A stretch of DNA of 28,880 nucleotides, taken from positions 1-28,880 of IMG/VR virus record IMGVR_UViG_3300025671_000370; one strand, 5' to 3'. Below the pieces are notes generated by a model. The model was given only the letters and a program-made list of their open reading frames with translations. It ran no database searches and was not told where the DNA came from. Source of the stretch: a virus. This document shows, piece after piece, positions 5,802 through 15,599 of this stretch (its first letter is position 1; each line of letters starts with the position of its first letter). A program made the translations under genes and the position numbers.

Positions 5802-7055
5802 TTAATATCCTGCTATAGGGTCTATGATTTCAAATTCCTCTTCCTCAAAGTCAACATAGTAGCTAACTTTGGCAAGCTGATCGACATACGCTAATGCATC
5901 AACTAAGTCATCATGCACTAACGGGTTTGGAAACTGAAATAGCTCATCCAAGAACTCAGTATTCCATTCACCCTCAGAGAGAGTGATTTGTCCATGTTCG
6001 AAGCGTCCTTGCAGAGCCCAAACAATTCTGTCTACCTTCTTTTTATTCCCGTGTGTTAGTTCTTCCACACGAAAGTAACGATTACCGCTTTTCATCAAGT
6101 CGGTGAGATAAGGGATTACTGCGTTCCTCAAAGCCCCTCGTTCAATCCCTACTGCAACCGGTTGATAATGGTCTACAGCCTCAAAGATCTTTCTGGCAGT
6201 CTTTTTAATATCCCATCGCCCTGAAATGATATCAGCAATCCACCAACCATTCATTCCAGCCTTCACAATCGCTATTGCTGTTTTGTCCAGTCTTTTCCCT
6301 TTACCGGTGGCGTTTGAAGCAACGTCAGCAAAGCCAGCTAAATCCACAGCAATATAATACTCACCGTCATCTGGTTCTTCGTTGCTGAATTGTATCCAGT
6401 CTTCTTTGAAGATCTCAGAACCCAATGCCTCAAAGCTCGCCATAAACTCCTGACGGAAGGCGTAGGATGACATTGACTTCTTAGCTGTGTTAATCTCTTC
6501 CGGGTCAAGCAACGGATTATCGTAGCTGGTAAAGTGCCATGCTTGATACGTAGGATCATCACTAAGCTCCGCATACTTAAACAAGTCATAGAAATGATTT
6601 CGTCCAAGCGGAGTTCCAATGAACAACGCATGACCCTTCTGGTCAGCAAGTGCAGGTCTCAGTACGGTCTCCCACACAGACGGTTTCATGTCTGCGTATT
6701 CATCCAATACCAAGAACTTCAGAGAGACCCCACGCATCGTCTCTGGTCTATCCGCACCCTTTAAACTAATCGTCGCACCGTTGATCAGTTTAATTTGCAT
6801 ATTATTCACATGGCTTCCTGAGATCACAGGATTACCAAGCTCAAGCAATGTATTCCACATAATGTCCCTAGCCTGACCCTGTGTCGGGGCTACGTAGAAT
6901 ACATGTCCTCGTTCAGTCTGCAACGCATTGATGATTAACATCCATGCCGCTAATCGAGACTTACCAGTTCGTCGCCCAGCGGCAACAATCTTAAAGCGAA
7001 CAGCAGATTCAAATACGTTTTGTTGCCACGGTAGTAGCTCAACATTAAGATCCAC
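5802..7055 (-). CDS. terL: Terminase large subunit
   Basis: 417 residues. The N-terminal ATPase has Walker A AAGRRTGKS (residues about 25-33) and Walker B FLVLDEYAD (D118, E119), with a coupling-type motif FIGTPLGRN near 145. The C-terminal RNase H-like nuclease has YYIAVDLAG (D238) and GIERGALRN, ending with HDDLVDALAY, the usual metal-binding acids. It is shorter than many terminases but has both domains. It overlaps the lysozyme gene by 11 bases. It cuts concatemers and drives DNA packaging through the portal. Confidence 0.96.
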   Translation of the reverse strand: MDLNVELLPWQQNVFESAVRFKIVAAGRRTGKSRLAAWMLIINALQTERGHVFYVAPTQGQARDIMWNTLLELGNPVISGSHVNNMQIKLINGATISLKGADRPETMRGVSLKFLVLDEYADMKPSVWETVLRPALADQKGHALFIGTPLGRNHFYDLFKYAELSDDPTYQAWHFTSYDNPLLDPEEINTAKKSMSSYAFRQEFMASFEALGSEIFKEDWIQFSNEEPDDGEYYIAVDLAGFADVASNATGKGKRLDKTAIAIVKAGMNGWWIADIISGRWDIKKTARKIFEAVDHYQPVAVGIERGALRNAVIPYLTDLMKSGNRYFRVEELTHGNKKKVDRIVWALQGRFEHGQITLSEGEWNTEFLDELFQFPNPLVHDDLVDALAYVDQLAKVSYYVDFEEEEFEIIDPIAGY

Positions 7056-7497
7056 GCATGATCTCTACAAGTTCTTCACCACGCCGTTTTACCTGACGAT
7101 ACCACTTCGAATCTACCATCTCATCAGCGGCTTTCGAGTAGTTTCCTTCATTGACAGCAGTAATCATATTCTTAAACTTACTTAAACGATTCCTTCCTAG
7201 ATTAAACGCCATGTTAACAAGCACACGTTGTACATTCTCAGGATGTGAACTAAAGTTCAAGAATAACGCACAAGCGTCTTCACAAGCGGCATTACAATCG
7301 ATATGGAAGACATCTAAGATTCTTTCATCAGTCACTGGAGATCCTACAGGCCAAGTAAACTCAGGATCAGCTTCAGTCACCAAGTGTCCGATACCAAATG
7401 TTGGTAAATGTTCTGAGTCTAAGTAAATCTCAGCAACATAGCCCTCATGCCGTATCAGGTCTTCCTTAATCAAGTCAATCAGATTCTGGGGTAACAT
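7045..7497 (-). CDS. Endolysin, GH24 (T4 lysozyme family)
   Basis: 150 residues. The catalytic spacing E18-x8-D27-x5-T33, within RHEGYVAEIYLDSEHLPTFG, equals T4 lysozyme E11-D20-T26. GIGH follows, and VLVNMAFNLGRNRLSKFKNM is the conserved C-lobe helix of the family. MADEMVDSKW-like and QVKRRGEELVEIM helices end the protein. There is no signal peptide, so export through a holin would be needed, and no certain holin is seen. It lies between the two terminase genes, overlapping the small subunit by 23 bases and the large one by 11, an unusual place for a lysin. It hydrolyses peptidoglycan at lysis. Confidence 0.93.
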   Translation of the reverse strand: MLPQNLIDLIKEDLIRHEGYVAEIYLDSEHLPTFGIGHLVTEADPEFTWPVGSPVTDERILDVFHIDCNAACEDACALFLNFSSHPENVQRVLVNMAFNLGRNRLSKFKNMITAVNEGNYSKAADEMVDSKWYRQVKRRGEELVEIMRGS

Positions 7498-7891
7498 CTA
7501 TTACTTCTCCTTCTTCAGAGTCATTTCCGGTGATTACAGTGTCTCCATTGACTCCAGTGATCGTAATAGACACAGAACTCTTACCATTAGACATCTTATC
7601 CTTCTCAAAGTAAGACAATGGCAAGACTCTGTCCATGCACATCTTCAATGCGGCCATCTGACCGGGATGTTCATCGTTCTGTGCAATATTAATTATTTTT
7701 GTAATTACAGCATCGCCTGAAGTTGCAAGTAATCGAGCTTTAAACTCGTTAATCCTAGCGGCATCGCCGGGAGGTCTGCCACGAACACCTCTATTACCGG
7801 CCTTCTTAGCCTCAATATCGGTTTTTCTTGGTCTACCTCGCCCTCGTTTCTTTGTAGGCTCTGCTGTTGTTAATTCTGTCTTCTCGGTCAT
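7475..7891 (-). CDS. Putative terminase small subunit with AT-hook-like N-terminus
   Basis: 138 residues. Residues 14-45 are very basic, with KKRGRGRPRKTD and GVRGRPPGD, two AT-hook-like GRP cores suited to minor-groove DNA binding. A helical part follows (FKARLLATSGDAVITKIINI, MAALKMCMDRVLPLSYFEKD), then an acidic beta-rich tail. It is the first gene of the leftward late operon, two genes from terL, and is of normal length for a small terminase. The role, recognising phage DNA for packaging, is inferred from position and DNA-binding composition. GGAG precedes ATG 7891. Confidence 0.75.
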   Translation of the reverse strand: MTEKTELTTAEPTKKRGRGRPRKTDIEAKKAGNRGVRGRPPGDAARINEFKARLLATSGDAVITKIINIAQNDEHPGQMAALKMCMDRVLPLSYFEKDKMSNGKSSVSITITGVNGDTVITGNDSEEGEVIDVTPESD

Positions 7892-7914: not shown

Positions 7915-7943
7915 ATGATAACACACTCAAAAGCAAAAGTCAA
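7915..7943 (-). promoter_or_regulatory. Sigma-70 promoter for the leftward late operon
   Basis: Minus-strand TTGACT (7943-7938), a 17-bp spacer, and TATCAT (7920-7915). Transcription would start about 15-20 bases before the small-terminase ATG at 7891. The -35 context CTTGACTTTT is shared with the 3706 promoter. Confidence 0.8.
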
Positions 7944-8071: not shown

Positions 8072-8306
8072 TTGCAAGTCTAGGTAGGTACTATAAAAAT
8101 AATTGCAAGTCAAAAGACGCCCCCGCAGTGCAACAAAGGGCTGGCATGATCTTTGCAGGGCAATCGAGATCAATGTTGGCATGATAGTTGCATAGCTATG
8201 GTGGCATGACAATTGCAGGGCTATATTGGCATGATAGTTGCAAGGGGCTAAATAGGCGCTGGCATGATCTTTGCAGGGACTAAATTGATTACCTAGGCTT
8301 GCAAGT
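8072..8306. repeat. TTGCAAGT direct repeats (three copies)
   Basis: TTGCAAGTC occurs at 8072-8080 and 8103-8111, and TTGCAAGT again at 8299-8306. The copies flank the five-element array on both sides, and the TTGCA core is the same as the -12 half of those elements. This suggests that one DNA-binding protein may see the whole set. Confidence 0.6.
8142..8275 (+). repeat. Array of five sigma-54-like (-24/-12) elements
   Basis: The copies start at 8142, 8177, 8202, 8227 and 8260. Each is 16 bases: TGGCATGATCTTTGCA (first and fifth), TGGCATGATAGTTGCA (second and fourth) and TGGCATGACAATTGCA (third). All match the sigma-54 consensus TGGCACG-N4-TTGCW except for C to T at one position, with the GG-to-GC distance exactly right. 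The most variable bases fall in the N4 spacer. The copies are followed by GGG or GCTA. No plus-strand gene lies just downstream, so they may instead be iterons for a replication initiator. The repeats are certain; the promoter reading is not. Confidence 0.85.
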
Positions 8307-8332
8307 GTGAGGGACTATGTAGCACCCAATAG

Positions 8333-8399
8333 AGCCCGATAGCCTATCCAGCCTGTTCAGCCTGTAAAGCCCTGTAAAGCCCTGTAACAGCCTAGAATG
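8333..8399. repeat. AGCCTGTAA-type tandem repeat (six full units plus a weak one)
   Basis: Units are AGCCTATCC (8341), AGCCTGTTC (8350), AGCCTGTAA (8359), AGCCCTGTAA (8368), AGCCCTGTAAC (8378) and AGCCTAGAATG (8389), with a degenerate AGCCCGAT at 8333. The period of 9-11 bases is close to one helical turn, which places protein-binding sites on one DNA face. Confidence 0.8.
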
Positions 8400-8733: not shown

Positions 8734-9429
8734 TTAGTGAGCTCCTATCAGTTCAGGATTGCGGATAACGAAATCAGAATCGGATTGTTTCGCCGATCCT
8801 TTGGCCTTTAAGCCGATTACGATCCCTTTAGGATCATCGATTCGAATATCGTGAATGTCCCCGTCGATAACCTTTCGATTCATAAACCGGCTAGGCAATC
8901 CACCGCTAAAGACCACCGCAATATTCGCACCATGATCTAGCGCTTGTTTCACGTGTTTCTGATACCGATCAGCGCCGGAATAGCTAAAGGTTAGATAATA
9001 GTTATCAGGCAAAACCTGAATAAACCGATCTGATCGCTTCGAATAGTCGTAAAACCTGATAGCAGGGAATGATTGTGGAATCCCGTAGTCTTCCCATGCG
9101 ATATCTGAAATGACATTCAACCGAACCACCGGCTGTTTACCGGCTTTTTCGGCTTTGCGCTGGAATGCGTGAAGATCCTTTCTCAATTGATCCAAGAAGC
9201 CGTCACGATCTGAATGCCACCAATTCGATTTTGACTGTCGGGCTTTAATGACATTCGAAAACCGGCCACGGCCAGCGCTCTTTAGACAGTCATCAAAACA
9301 GCCAGCAATCTTCGAAGCCGGACAAATCACGTTATCGGGATATAACGACAAACCAGCGAACAAATATTTCGATGTCGCTTTATTGGTTTTAGCCAATTTC
9401 GAATTGGCGTCGATTGATAAGAGTTTCAT
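8734..9429 (-). CDS. Gp88-like phage/plasmid protein with a conserved Cys cluster
   Basis: 231 residues. It starts MKLLSIDANSKLAKTNKATS, then ICPASKIAGCFDDCLKSAGR (C36, C44, C48), GRGRFSNVIKARQSKSNWWH, VRLNVISDIAWEDYGIPQSF and FPAIRFYDYSKRSDRF. I recognise this pattern from the gene-product-88-type family found in many phages and plasmids, whose function is not established. The Cys cluster and the FYDYSKR segment recall Gp37/Gp68-type proteins with a metal or Fe-S site, which is inference. TAATG couples it to the gene before, with the strong ribosome site GGAGGGGG. The reading frame is CpG-rich compared with the late genes. Confidence 0.75.
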   Translation of the reverse strand: MKLLSIDANSKLAKTNKATSKYLFAGLSLYPDNVICPASKIAGCFDDCLKSAGRGRFSNVIKARQSKSNWWHSDRDGFLDQLRKDLHAFQRKAEKAGKQPVVRLNVISDIAWEDYGIPQSFPAIRFYDYSKRSDRFIQVLPDNYYLTFSYSGADRYQKHVKQALDHGANIAVVFSGGLPSRFMNRKVIDGDIHDIRIDDPKGIVIGLKAKGSAKQSDSDFVIRNPELIGAH

Positions 9430-9722
9430 TAGTAGTCCCCCTCCATGCTGTTGATGATCGCCGCCGCTAGTTCGGCTTCGTTTTCGGTTTCGAAGAAATA
9501 TCGAAGCGTGTTCCCGTCCCTTGGATAGTCCGCAATAGTCTGAAATCCATCCAAACCAGCGACAATAAACTGGGAATCTATTTGGCGCTTGTTTCGATAG
9601 CTAGGCTGATCCCCGTCCATGCAAGGGATCATTTCAAGCCCTGAAATCTCATTCGGGATTTGAATCGTATGTTGATGCGATTCTTTAAAAGAACCATAAG
9701 GATTTGGTTTAACTGTGATCAT
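9429..9722 (-). CDS. Hypothetical protein, accessory operon
   Basis: 97 residues, starting MITVKPNPYGSFKESHQHTI with LEMIPCMDGDQPSYRN, QFIVAGLDGFQTIADYPRDG and a C-terminal helix ENEAELAAAIINSMEGDY. It is mixed alpha/beta and soluble. ATG at 9722 overlaps the previous stop as ATGA, and GGAG lies 9 bases upstream. Its stop overlaps the Gp88-like start as TAATG. I do not recognise a family. The tight coupling suggests that it works with the Gp88-like protein. Confidence 0.7.
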   Translation of the reverse strand: MITVKPNPYGSFKESHQHTIQIPNEISGLEMIPCMDGDQPSYRNKRQIDSQFIVAGLDGFQTIADYPRDGNTLRYFFETENEAELAAAIINSMEGDY

Positions 9723-10078
9723 GATTGTTTACTCCGATAATTTGCTAAAACAGAACTATTCCAATCGGCCATTGACATAATGCCGCTAGGCGCTGGTTTG
9801 GGTTCCTGAAGATTGGCCGAAATAGACTCAATTTCAGATTCACGATGAACAGCGACAAGAATCGTAAATGGATCGGAATCGCTAAATTGCCATTCGGAAT
9901 CCTCACCGTCCCATTGACTAGCGACAAAATCGGCCACGTGTTCTTTGGTGGTCCCGTAACTGAACAGTTTATCGATAGTCCATTCGAGATCCCCGATCGA
10001 ATCAACCACACGCCTCGAAGGGAGCTCGTAATTTGATACGTACACTTCGAACAGTGTTTTCATATATTGGTCAGTCAT
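9719..10078 (-). CDS. Hypothetical protein, accessory operon
   Basis: 119 residues from ATG 10078, beginning MTDQYMKTLFEVYVSNYELP. An upstream ATG at 10105 is in frame, but 10078 forms an ATGA overlap with the previous stop and has AGGGGAT 7 bases upstream. It is acidic and Trp-containing (DLEWTIDKLFSYGTTKEHVA, SQWDGEDSEWQFSDSDPF), with a Pro-rich segment (EPKPAPSGIM) near the end. No family is recognised. It is the second gene of a four-gene coupled operon. Confidence 0.7.
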   Translation of the reverse strand: MTDQYMKTLFEVYVSNYELPSRRVVDSIGDLEWTIDKLFSYGTTKEHVADFVASQWDGEDSEWQFSDSDPFTILVAVHRESEIESISANLQEPKPAPSGIMSMADWNSSVLANYRSKQS

Positions 10079-10401
10079 GCGAGATCCCCTTTTGAGAAAT
10101 TCCATAAAGCTTTTCCGCTAGGGCGCTTTTCTACGGCTATCGTTATTTTACCCACGTGGATTTGATCGAAGCTTGTTTCGTGATTCGCACCCAATCCCCG
10201 ATCCTTCAATTTGCGAACACGGTAGAAACCTTCAGCCCAATATTTAGAAACAGCGAAACGAACCGTCCCGTTAGATTCTTTACAGAAAAGAATTTTCGAT
10301 TCGGGAAAATATGATTTCACCAATTCACGGGCTAGCCGGTGATTACGCTCCATTTCTGATTCGAGACCAAAAATCATTTTGAAAGTTTGCTTGATAGTCA
10401 T
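10075..10401 (-). CDS. Hypothetical protein, first gene of the accessory operon
   Basis: 108 residues starting MTIKQTFKMIFGLESEMERN, followed by HRLARELVKSYFPESKILFC and a likely beta-rich middle (GTVRFAVSKYWAEGFYRVRK, VGKITIAVEKRP). It is basic overall. AGGA lies 9 bases before the ATG. It is the first gene downstream of the control region with Fur-box-like dyads. Not recognised. A regulatory role would fit a promoter-proximal gene of a divergent switch, but I see no helix-turn-helix. Confidence 0.7.
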   Translation of the reverse strand: MTIKQTFKMIFGLESEMERNHRLARELVKSYFPESKILFCKESNGTVRFAVSKYWAEGFYRVRKLKDRGLGANHETSFDQIHVGKITIAVEKRPSGKALWNFSKGDLA

Positions 10402-10544: not shown

Positions 10545-10624
10545 TGAGAATCATTCGCAGAATAATGAGAATCATTTGTATTTGAGAATCGTTCGCATCT
10601 AGGGTGTAATAAGAATCATTCGCA
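10545..10624. repeat. Four Fur-box-like 15-bp dyads
   Basis: Copies are TGAGAATCATTCGCA (10545), TGAGAATCATTTGTA (10566), TGAGAATCGTTCGCA (10583) and TAAGAATCATTCGCA (10610). The first is a 7-1-7 palindrome with one mismatched pair, of form TGNGAATNATTCNCA. Eleven of its 14 arm bases match the Fur model TGATAATNATTATCA. They lie between two divergent promoters. The array is a clear operator-like structure; binding by host Fur, or by a phage protein, is inference. Confidence 0.8.
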
Positions 10625-10681
10625 TTAAGAAAAATTTTAAAAATCCCGTTCAGCCAGCGGTTGCTAGTCAAACAAGCTATT

Positions 10682-10759
10682 GGGACAGTGAACCCCTTGG
10701 GACAGCAAACCCCTTGACAGGGACACAGAACCCTGATACACTCTGGGACTATCAACCCC
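10682..10759. repeat. Four GGGAC-N5-AACCCC repeats over the early promoter
   Basis: GGGACAGTGAACCCC (10682), GGGACAGCAAACCCC (10699), GGGACACAGAACCCT (10720) and GGGACTATCAACCCC (10745). The third fills the spacer between the -35 and -10 boxes of the early promoter, the fourth covers the start point, and the first two lie just upstream. This layout is typical of operators for a repressor or activator. Confidence 0.8.
10714..10742 (+). promoter_or_regulatory. Main rightward (early) sigma-70 promoter
   Basis: TTGACA (10714-10719), a 17-bp spacer, and TACACT (10737-10742), with TG one base before the -10 (extended -10). The start point near 10749 gives a leader of about 27 bases to the ATG at 10776. 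Repeats overlap every promoter element, so strict control is likely. Confidence 0.85.
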
Positions 10760-10775: not shown

Positions 10776-10961
10776 ATGAGATGTATCGCATGTAATTCTG
10801 AGCTCACTGACTACGAAGCAACAAGGAAATCAAGTGCAACTGGAGAGTTCTTAGATCTCTGCAACACTTGTTACAACAGTATCACAGAAGATGTTCAAGC
10901 AATTGATAATAAAGACTTAATTACTTTTCAAGACTACATTGACATCTCAGAAGATTTATGA
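10776..10961 (+). CDS. Small zinc-finger-like early protein
   Basis: 61 residues, MRCIACNSELTDYEATRKSS then LDLCNTCYNSITEDV. Two CxxC pairs (C3/C6 and about C29/C32) suggest one zinc site; the rest is acidic. Similar small CxxC-CxxC proteins occur in the early regions of many T7-like phages without a known role. It is the first gene of the rightward operon, with GGAG 8 bases upstream of the ATG. A host-takeover role is possible but not shown. Confidence 0.75.
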   Translation: MRCIACNSELTDYEATRKSSATGEFLDLCNTCYNSITEDVQAIDNKDLITFQDYIDISEDL

Positions 10962-13969: not shown

Positions 13970-15599
13970 CATCGAGACGAACACAGCCCTCAGTACGATA
14001 TGGTGCTGTCTCACTCAGGATGTTGAAACAGGAGAATCAATATGTCATACAGAACCAGCCACACTAGCTCCACTGGTAAAGGAGTACGATCAAATCATCG
14101 GGCACAATATCATTGGTTTCGATGCTCCAGTCCTTCGGAGGCTATGGAACATTGGGATACCGAAATCGAAAGCGGTAGACACATTAATTCTTTCAAGACT
14201 TTTGAATCCACAGCTAGAAGGCGGACACAGCTTGAAGGCTTGGGGTTTACGGCTGAAGAATTCTAAGATTGAATTTGAAGATTATGATGGTGGGTTGACC
14301 GATGAAATGGTGGAGTATTGTAGGCAAGATGTGGCGCTTACCGCTGATTTGTATGGCGTTCTTATGGCTGGCCTTAACGAATGGAAAGACCCTAGTCAGG
14401 CGATTAAGATCGAACATGACATTGCAGTCATCTGTAAGAAACAAGAAGAGAATGGTTTCAAACTGGATATCCCTTCAGCTTCAATTCTTAAAGCTACGCT
14501 GTCAGATCGCATGGGTGTACTGGAAGACACTGTTCAGGCTGTATTCCCGCCGATTGTTGAGGAGCGTTGGTCTGAGAAGACAGGAAAGCAACTGAAGGAT
14601 AAGGTGACTGTCTTTAACTTAGCCAGTCGTAAGCAGATCGGAGAACGCTTGATTAATTTAGGCTGGAAGCCAAGTAAACATACTGAGAAAGGACAGCCTA
14701 TCGTTGATGAAGGGACACTAGACTCTGTGGACATCCCAGAGGCTCAGATGATCGCAGAATACTTGATGATACAGAAACGTGTCGCTATGATCGACTCATG
14801 GTTAAAACATGTCGATGAAAAGACATCTCGTGTACATGGAGGCATCATCACCAATGGTGCAGTGACAGGCAGGATGACTCATCGCAATCCCAATATGGGA
14901 CAGGTTCCTTCAGTGAACAAACCATACGGGCAGGAGATACGTTCATTATGGACTGTCGATGATGGTAATGTGTTAGTTGGCACGGATCTTGCAGGGATTG
15001 AGTTACGTTGCCTTGCACACTACATGCAGGATGATGAATGGACAGAGGAGTTACTGAATGGGGACATCCATCAGAAGAACGCTGAAGCCGCCGGTCTCAC
15101 AAGGCCACAAGCTAAAACATTGCAGTATGCAGTTCTTTACGGGGCCGGTCCAAGAAAAGTTGGCAGTATTGTTGGAGGTGGGGCGAAAGAAGGGAATGAA
15201 ATTCTATTTCGTTTTTATCGTAACACCCCTAAGTTACAACAACTTATGGAGAAGGTTGCGAAAGTGGCGGCAAAAGGGTATGTACCGGGCTTGGATGGTA
15301 GAAGAATACTGGTCAGATATGACCACGCCGCACTCAACAGCCTCCTTCAAGGATGCGGTGCTATTATTGCCAAGCAATGGTGTATCGAAGCGCACAAAGT
15401 ATTTAGGCAAAGACAGATCCCTGTCAAGCAAGTTGCGTTTGTGCATGACGAAATACAAATTGAAACAGCGGAGAAACATGGTGAAGAAGTTGCACAAATC
15501 ATGTGCGATGCGGCCTCACAAGCCGGGATTACCTTGGGCTTTCGATGCCCAGTAGACGCAGAAAGTAAAATAGGTCAAAATTGGTTTGACACTCACTAA
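13950..15599 (+). CDS. DNA polymerase, family A with 3'-5' exonuclease
   Basis: 549 residues with GTG start (MKKLILDIETN; GAGG 6 bases upstream). Exonuclease motifs: D7/E9, HNIIGFD (D58), YCRQD (Y123, D127). Polymerase motifs: A at GTDLAGIELR (D346, E351), B at RPQAKTLQYAVLYG (R385, K389, Y397), C at VHDEIQIE (H499, D500, E501). All catalytic residues are present, so it should be proofreading and active. It is shorter than T7 gp5 (704 residues). I see no obvious thioredoxin-binding insertion. It is part of the replication operon, and its last codons hold the promoter for the ssDNA-binding protein. Confidence 0.95.
   Translation: MKKLILDIETNTALSTIWCCLTQDVETGESICHTEPATLAPLVKEYDQIIGHNIIGFDAPVLRRLWNIGIPKSKAVDTLILSRLLNPQLEGGHSLKAWGLRLKNSKIEFEDYDGGLTDEMVEYCRQDVALTADLYGVLMAGLNEWKDPSQAIKIEHDIAVICKKQEENGFKLDIPSASILKATLSDRMGVLEDTVQAVFPPIVEERWSEKTGKQLKDKVTVFNLASRKQIGERLINLGWKPSKHTEKGQPIVDEGTLDSVDIPEAQMIAEYLMIQKRVAMIDSWLKHVDEKTSRVHGGIITNGAVTGRMTHRNPNMGQVPSVNKPYGQEIRSLWTVDDGNVLVGTDLAGIELRCLAHYMQDDEWTEELLNGDIHQKNAEAAGLTRPQAKTLQYAVLYGAGPRKVGSIVGGGAKEGNEILFRFYRNTPKLQQLMEKVAKVAAKGYVPGLDGRRILVRYDHAALNSLLQGCGAIIAKQWCIEAHKVFRQRQIPVKQVAFVHDEIQIETAEKHGEEVAQIMCDAASQAGITLGFRCPVDAESKIGQNWFDTH

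Follow-up and report, generated by a model that had tools for sequence, protein, structure and literature searches.

In bacteriophage T7, short repeats (SRL and SRR) are located beside the terminal repeats, and tandem promoters make the primer at an end-proximal origin. SRL and SRR are gene-free repeat arrays at a genome end, as is the array described here, and they are not known as sites for host regulators. The datA locus of Escherichia coli, which titrates DnaA, is likewise a non-coding cluster of sites that binds a host regulator, but it is chromosomal, concerns DnaA and is part of the host's own control.

T7-type direct terminal repeats of 159–173 bp have been read from PacBio data in the cobavirus ICBM1, and cobavirus repeats have a conserved G+C-rich end (PMC6775973). 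The locus analyzed here lies in a window of 28,880 bases (the whole stretch of DNA examined, which is one IMG/VR record). It has in common with the ICBM1 repeat its place between the terminase side and the early genes, a G+C-rich end and a similar boundary: its conserved element A (see below) is similar in sequence to the boundary annotated for the 172-bp direct terminal repeat in ICBM1. However, the inferred repeats of the window's phage group are filled with sigma-54 sites or DnaA boxes, whereas no array was found in ICBM1 or any other cobavirus checked.

The other isolate of interest is Vibrio phage VpV262 (NC_003907.2, L434), whose annotated terminal repeat covers positions 1–138 (138 bp). 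Six sigma-54-like sites were found at 173–346, which represent all matches to TGGCAYRN5TGCW in this genome. Unlike the array of the window, they lie just inside the terminal repeat and not within it, and each departs from the strict pattern at one or two positions. No earlier description of these sites was found in the literature searched. RpoN of the host, V. parahaemolyticus, binds the flgB promoter at the site TTGGCACGCTAATTGCTTT, as observed by gel shift in vitro (PMC9817140). Sixteen other isolate records, including cobaviruses, RIO-1, ICP2 and other VpV262 relatives, contained no arrays and at most one site each, and a BLAST search for the array among phage isolates detected nothing real.

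Five sites in a gene-free stretch

The record represents a podovirus-like genome, with PHROG matches to a T7-type polymerase, primase-helicase and exonuclease as well as a ribonucleotide reductase. Its replication genes are T7-like, and neither an RNA polymerase nor a Rep-type initiator was found among the PHROG matches. Late genes run leftward from 7891 and early genes rightward from 10776, and a leftward accessory operon is located in between. The features of this region are as follows.

5802–7055, minus strand: terminase large subunit, TerL (phrog_2, E 8.8e-49)
7475–7891, minus strand: 138-aa protein at the small-terminase (terS) position, first gene of the leftward late operon; assigned by position and conserved neighbourhood in relatives, with no PHROG match
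7915–7943, minus strand: sigma-70-like promoter of the late operon, TTGACT-N17-TATCAT (consensus scan only)
8073–8112, unstranded: conserved element A, inferred outer boundary of the terminal repeat (terminase cut region, ~8080–8089); in 92 of 98 nonredundant relatives
8089–8323, unstranded: inferred direct terminal repeat with the array, ~235 bp (common core and co-variation of A and B; boundaries ± ~10 nt)
8118–8126, unstranded: C-rich tract adjoining element A (CCCCTCCCCCG(C)CCC tract in relatives)
8142–8157, plus strand: sigma-54-type site 1, TGGCATGATCTTTGCA, exact match
8177–8192, plus strand: sigma-54-type site 2, TGGCATGATAGTTGCA, exact match
8202–8217, plus strand: sigma-54-type site 3, TGGCATGACAATTGCA, exact match
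8227–8242, plus strand: sigma-54-type site 4, TGGCATGATAGTTGCA, exact match
8260–8275, plus strand: sigma-54-type site 5, TGGCATGATCTTTGCA, exact match
8295–8334, unstranded: conserved element B (85 of 98 relatives), inferred inner boundary; the contigs of four relatives end at the equivalent of 8323
8341–8393, unstranded: short AGCCTGTAA / CCTGTAAAG tandem repeats just outside element B
10545–10624, plus strand: four Fur-box-like sites in tandem (10545, 10566, 10583 and 10610), with 10–11 of 12 matches to TGANAATNATTNTCA
10714–10742, plus strand: sigma-70-like early promoter, TTGACA-N17-TACACT (consensus scan only)

A pattern scan of the 28,880-base record revealed exactly five matches to TGGCATGANNNTTGCA, all on the plus strand between 8142 and 8275, with start-to-start spacings of 35, 25, 25 and 33 bp; the same pattern read backwards, which served as a control, gave no match in the record. 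Based on the pattern length, only ~0.014 perfect sites are expected by chance per window. When up to two mismatches to TGGCAYGNNNNTTGCW were allowed, 18 matches were found in the window, compared with 8.65 ± 2.66 after dinucleotide shuffling, where none of 100 shuffled sequences reached 18. Five perfect sites within 134 bp are far beyond chance. The initial annotation, which had described five tandem TGGCACG-N4-TTGCW-type elements with −24/−12 spacing, was exact in this respect. The constant C-to-T change that it pointed out is present as well, but is an ordinary feature, as T occupies this position in 52% of 668 sites of other arrays. In addition, a perfect single sigma-54 site is present at 14978–14993 within the DNA polymerase gene, probably by chance.

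That no plus-strand ORF follows the array for more than 2 kb was also confirmed: no convincing one precedes 10776, and the genes at 8734–10401 run leftward. Rightward ORFs start 0.1–0.6 kb after the array in many relatives, and the long gene-empty stretch of the window is explained by the leftward accessory operon that sits there. We rejected the array as the promoter of the flanking operons, since both have their own sigma-70-like promoters. Around the early one, three copies of a 17-bp repeat (TTGGGACAGTGAACCCC-like) were observed at 10680–10759, which are possible operators.

A structured non-coding RNA, which had been proposed as one option, found no support. An Rfam scan of the window returned nothing, and an RNA hairpin could be rejected, because the four-base spacers of 77 opposed site pairs match each other less than permuted ones (0.91 vs. 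1.32 of 4), so that each pair is two DNA sites and not a stem.

Sigma-54 character and distribution of the arrays

As a test of spacing, pairs of TGGCAYG-N4-TTGCW sites located 3–33 nt apart were searched in IMG/VR. At least 120 stretches contained such pairs (the N4 count is a lower bound), compared with two for N5 spacing and none for N3. One-mismatch sites inside arrays were much more frequent than expected (77 vs. 2.8); their changes fall at positions 7, 1, 16 and 12, with GG and GC nearly always intact, and sigma-54 sites are known to tolerate mismatches outside GG/GC. We also analyzed base composition in 668 sites from 224 nonredundant arrays. At positions outside the search pattern, A/C reached 0.67 at −5, A/G 0.68 at −4, C/T 0.87 just before TGG and A/G 0.81 after TGGCAYG. 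The sigma-54 consensus compiled from 186 promoters, as it is quoted in PMC2725144, is mrNrYTGGCACG-N4-TTGCWNNw, and the unselected flanks of the 668 sites, taken over all arrays and not the window alone, match its mrNrY and the R after TGGCACG.

The array sites thus share with −24/−12 promoters every defined base (one tolerated position has T in place of C), the N4 spacing that separates GG from GC and the flank preferences. They differ from ordinary sigma-54 promoters in that 2 to 11 copies are clustered, in some cases on opposite strands, that no gene lies at promoter distance (the first plus-strand gene of the window starts at 10776) and that the phages encode almost no activator. The sigma-54 identity is strongly supported by three independent tests with concordant results (the spacing controls, the flank consensus and the mismatches that spare GG/GC) and by the recurrence in unrelated phages, and the sites of the window are very probably genuine binding sites of the RpoN holoenzyme. 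The same evidence makes it unlikely that they are iterons which resemble sigma-54 sites by chance, another option of the initial annotation. Relatives that keep the repeats and lose the GG/GC spacing would have spoken against a sigma-54 reading, and the comparison of relatives did not overturn it. Convergence of unrelated phages on one motif argues for a common host factor and not for a phage protein.

Sigma-54 promoters had been assumed to be rare in phages. For arrays this proved wrong: triple sites were detected in at least 119 viral stretches, compared with five matches in 257 Gb of bacterial genomes. Grouped by shared proteins, the 157 loci that have three or more perfect sites comprise a group of 69 members (that of the window phage), ten smaller groups and ~43 singletons. 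The arrays span about 50 phage groups with G+C contents from 0.30 to 0.64 and contain up to 11 sites; start-to-start spacing is as low as 17–19 bp in some arrays, and in 37 of 119 arrays both strands carry sites. Of 53 relatives sampled without bias by means of terL, 17 had a perfect sigma-54 site within 1 kb upstream. We found no report of sigma-54 arrays in phages in the literature searched, which covers few subscription journals.

Two of the five bacterial matches (Devosia, L244; Gracilibacillus, L247) were rejected as other repeats. The third belongs to an Oceanicoccus bin and lies on a phage-like contig that has terminase and portal genes; the fourth, from a Methylococcaceae bin, lies in an integrated element that has an integrase and a primase; and the fifth is in an island of a Chitinophagales bin, with its sites placed before genes. 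The Methylococcaceae element (L248/L426), which lies beside chromosomal genes and consists of an integrase, a primase, two small ORFs and six sigma-54-type sites, resembles a phage satellite. The Chitinophagales contig (L427) has about twenty sigma-54-type sites; almost all share one strand, and most lie 77–284 nt ahead of genes. These are apparently ordinary sigma-54 promoters. All three bacterial bins whose contigs carry sigma-54-type arrays contain rpoN.

An inferred terminal repeat with exchangeable contents

The array was found 5' of terL in 94 of 96 loci with a recognised large terminase, at a distance of 0.3–5.7 kb. Elements A and B are located upstream of the terS-position gene and lie 103–421 nt apart in all relatives but one. 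They have a common core (CTAAGTAGGTACC) and co-vary within genomes (0 of 2,000 permutations). The contigs of four relatives (L075, L211, L379 and L401) end at the same base of element B, and left-hand contig starts lie near element A but at no single exact base. The segment sits between the terminase end and the early genes, as a T7-type direct terminal repeat requires. From these features we strongly infer that A–B is such a repeat. This setting, next to the terminase genes and with DnaA boxes taking the place of the array in relatives, had been overlooked when the array was first described. A contig with arrays at both ends (L115/L250) was not accepted as proof of a terminal repeat, since its two ends are 94% identical over 443 nt, which makes it a strain-mixed circle.

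Sigma-54-like sites occur at 12.3/kb between A and B and at 0.48/kb outside; choosing loci by their arrays inflates the former density but not the contrast in place. The arrays adjoin the terminase genes and in the window's group lie between the inferred cut sites, and could in principle be packaging sites (pac- or cosB-like) for the small terminase subunit whose likeness to sigma-54 sites is accidental. We consider this highly improbable. A packaging motif would be specific to one terminase family, whereas the same 12-base signature occurs with many unrelated terminases; flanks and mismatch tolerance fit sigma-54, and a near relative with an identical TerL lacks the array.

The contents of the slot are exchangeable. 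DnaA boxes (TTATCCACA) occur at 4.3/kb inside A–B and at 0.03/kb outside. Among 79 genomes, 18 have at least two DnaA boxes in the A–B slot and 16 have neither the DnaA nor the sigma-54 kind. Dense TTATCCACA arrays (3 to 7 or more copies) replace the sigma-54 array in the inferred repeat, upstream of the terS-position gene, in L224, L242, L171, L166, L183 and L179. Mapped on the terL tree, the sigma-54 label must change 12 times, and supported branches force at least nine of these changes. The window's own terL clade holds both kinds, and TerL is identical in L054, with two sigma-54 sites, and L224, with seven DnaA boxes. Near arrays, enrichment is 8.9-fold for Fur-like boxes (TGANAATNATTNTCA-like sites at most 600 nt from a sigma-54 array) and 12- to 25-fold for DnaA boxes, compared with 0- to 2.5-fold for permuted controls, in loci that are partly dereplicated. 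Such Fur-box-like sites were observed near the arrays of L054, L064, L072, L093, L320 and others. Two further contents were noted. In L168, the terminal-repeat slot upstream of the terS-position gene holds three GCACC-N5-GGTGC-like palindromes that look like NtrC boxes (strict NtrC-like boxes occur in two relatives only), and in L204 the same slot holds a repeated CTAATGTAGC.

Considering that the slot lies in the inferred terminal repeat and accepts either of two tightly bound host proteins, bound sigma-54 polymerase or DnaA might act as a roadblock or marker at the concatemer junction, aiding processing or end protection. Such a role seems improbable, slightly less so than a packaging function, and some arrays of other families lie up to 5.7 kb from terL.

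Capture of host RpoN or inward transcription

We favour the possibility that the array captures host RpoN holoenzyme at the genome end and benefits the phage by titration, and is not the promoter of a gene; on the sequence evidence, this proposal stands about evenly between right and wrong. Host RNA polymerase–RpoN holoenzyme would bind the five sites, which would be kept by selection within the terminal repeat, and it would rest on near-consensus sites in a closed complex that is stable and silent. With entry and multiplication of the genome, these sites would compete with host sigma-54 promoters, and the RpoN response would be weakened. Most binding of E. coli sigma-54 is silent (PMC4591121), and tight near-consensus sites that may hold the holoenzyme without firing are discussed in PMC2725144. 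Capture and titration are favoured because sigma-54 sites, DnaA boxes and Fur boxes all bind host regulators. A decoy that titrates RpoN holoenzyme was among the three readings of the initial annotation and is the one preferred here, with primer or entry transcription also retained.

The main rival is a working promoter cluster, from which sigma-54 transcription would run inward on entering DNA and aid entry, boost early genes under stress or make a replication primer. It owes this place to the uniform orientation in the window's group, where all 62 tested arrays point away from terL and towards the early genes, and in VpV262, where four of the six sites, just past the terminal repeat, face inward. 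An origin would also agree with DnaA boxes occupying the slot in relatives, and the similar sites of the Chitinophagales contig stand before genes like ordinary promoters. On the other hand, orientation differs between the other families, and a phage-encoded activator was represented by one weak match in 49 records and by none in the window. Two polymerases could not occupy both of two sites that are 17–28 bp apart, given the size of their footprint. An ordinary promoter role is disfavoured because of the lack of a gene at promoter distance, the separate sigma-70-like promoters of both operons, the scarcity of activators, the two-strand arrays, these short spacings and the exchange with DnaA boxes. 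Overall, we regard inward transcription as unlikely, but much less so than either packaging sites or a roadblock.

Several observations also count against titration, a benefit to the phage that we can only infer. The uniform orientation in the group is not needed by a sponge, although it may simply be inherited. Five sites per genome would titrate nothing until the genome has multiplied, and sites 25 bp apart are probably not all filled at once, which would lower the capacity. Finally, a perfect site was present in only a minority of the unbiased terL sample.

The sigma-54 binding site is textbook knowledge and titration by DNA is a known principle. With DnaA boxes in relatives and Fur-like boxes nearby, the slot looks like a sponge for host regulators in general. 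A broader reading would go further: many phages would use non-coding arrays for RpoN holoenzyme, DnaA and Fur, located at or close to the genome ends and swapped like cassettes between relatives, as protein-free DNA sponges that reprogram the cell. We put this broader reading forward tentatively, with somewhat more doubt than confidence.

It is known that phages take over host transcription by means of proteins. The present arrays, shared by dozens of phage groups and almost missing from bacterial genomes, suggest a protein-free control of host transcription, and in dozens of unrelated phages such clusters may serve to trap host control proteins or offer them a landing pad. The question is directly testable, with the isolate VpV262, which has a weaker version of the array, and ordinary sigma-54 biochemistry. 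Unexplained repeats at phage genome ends would thereby gain a testable purpose.
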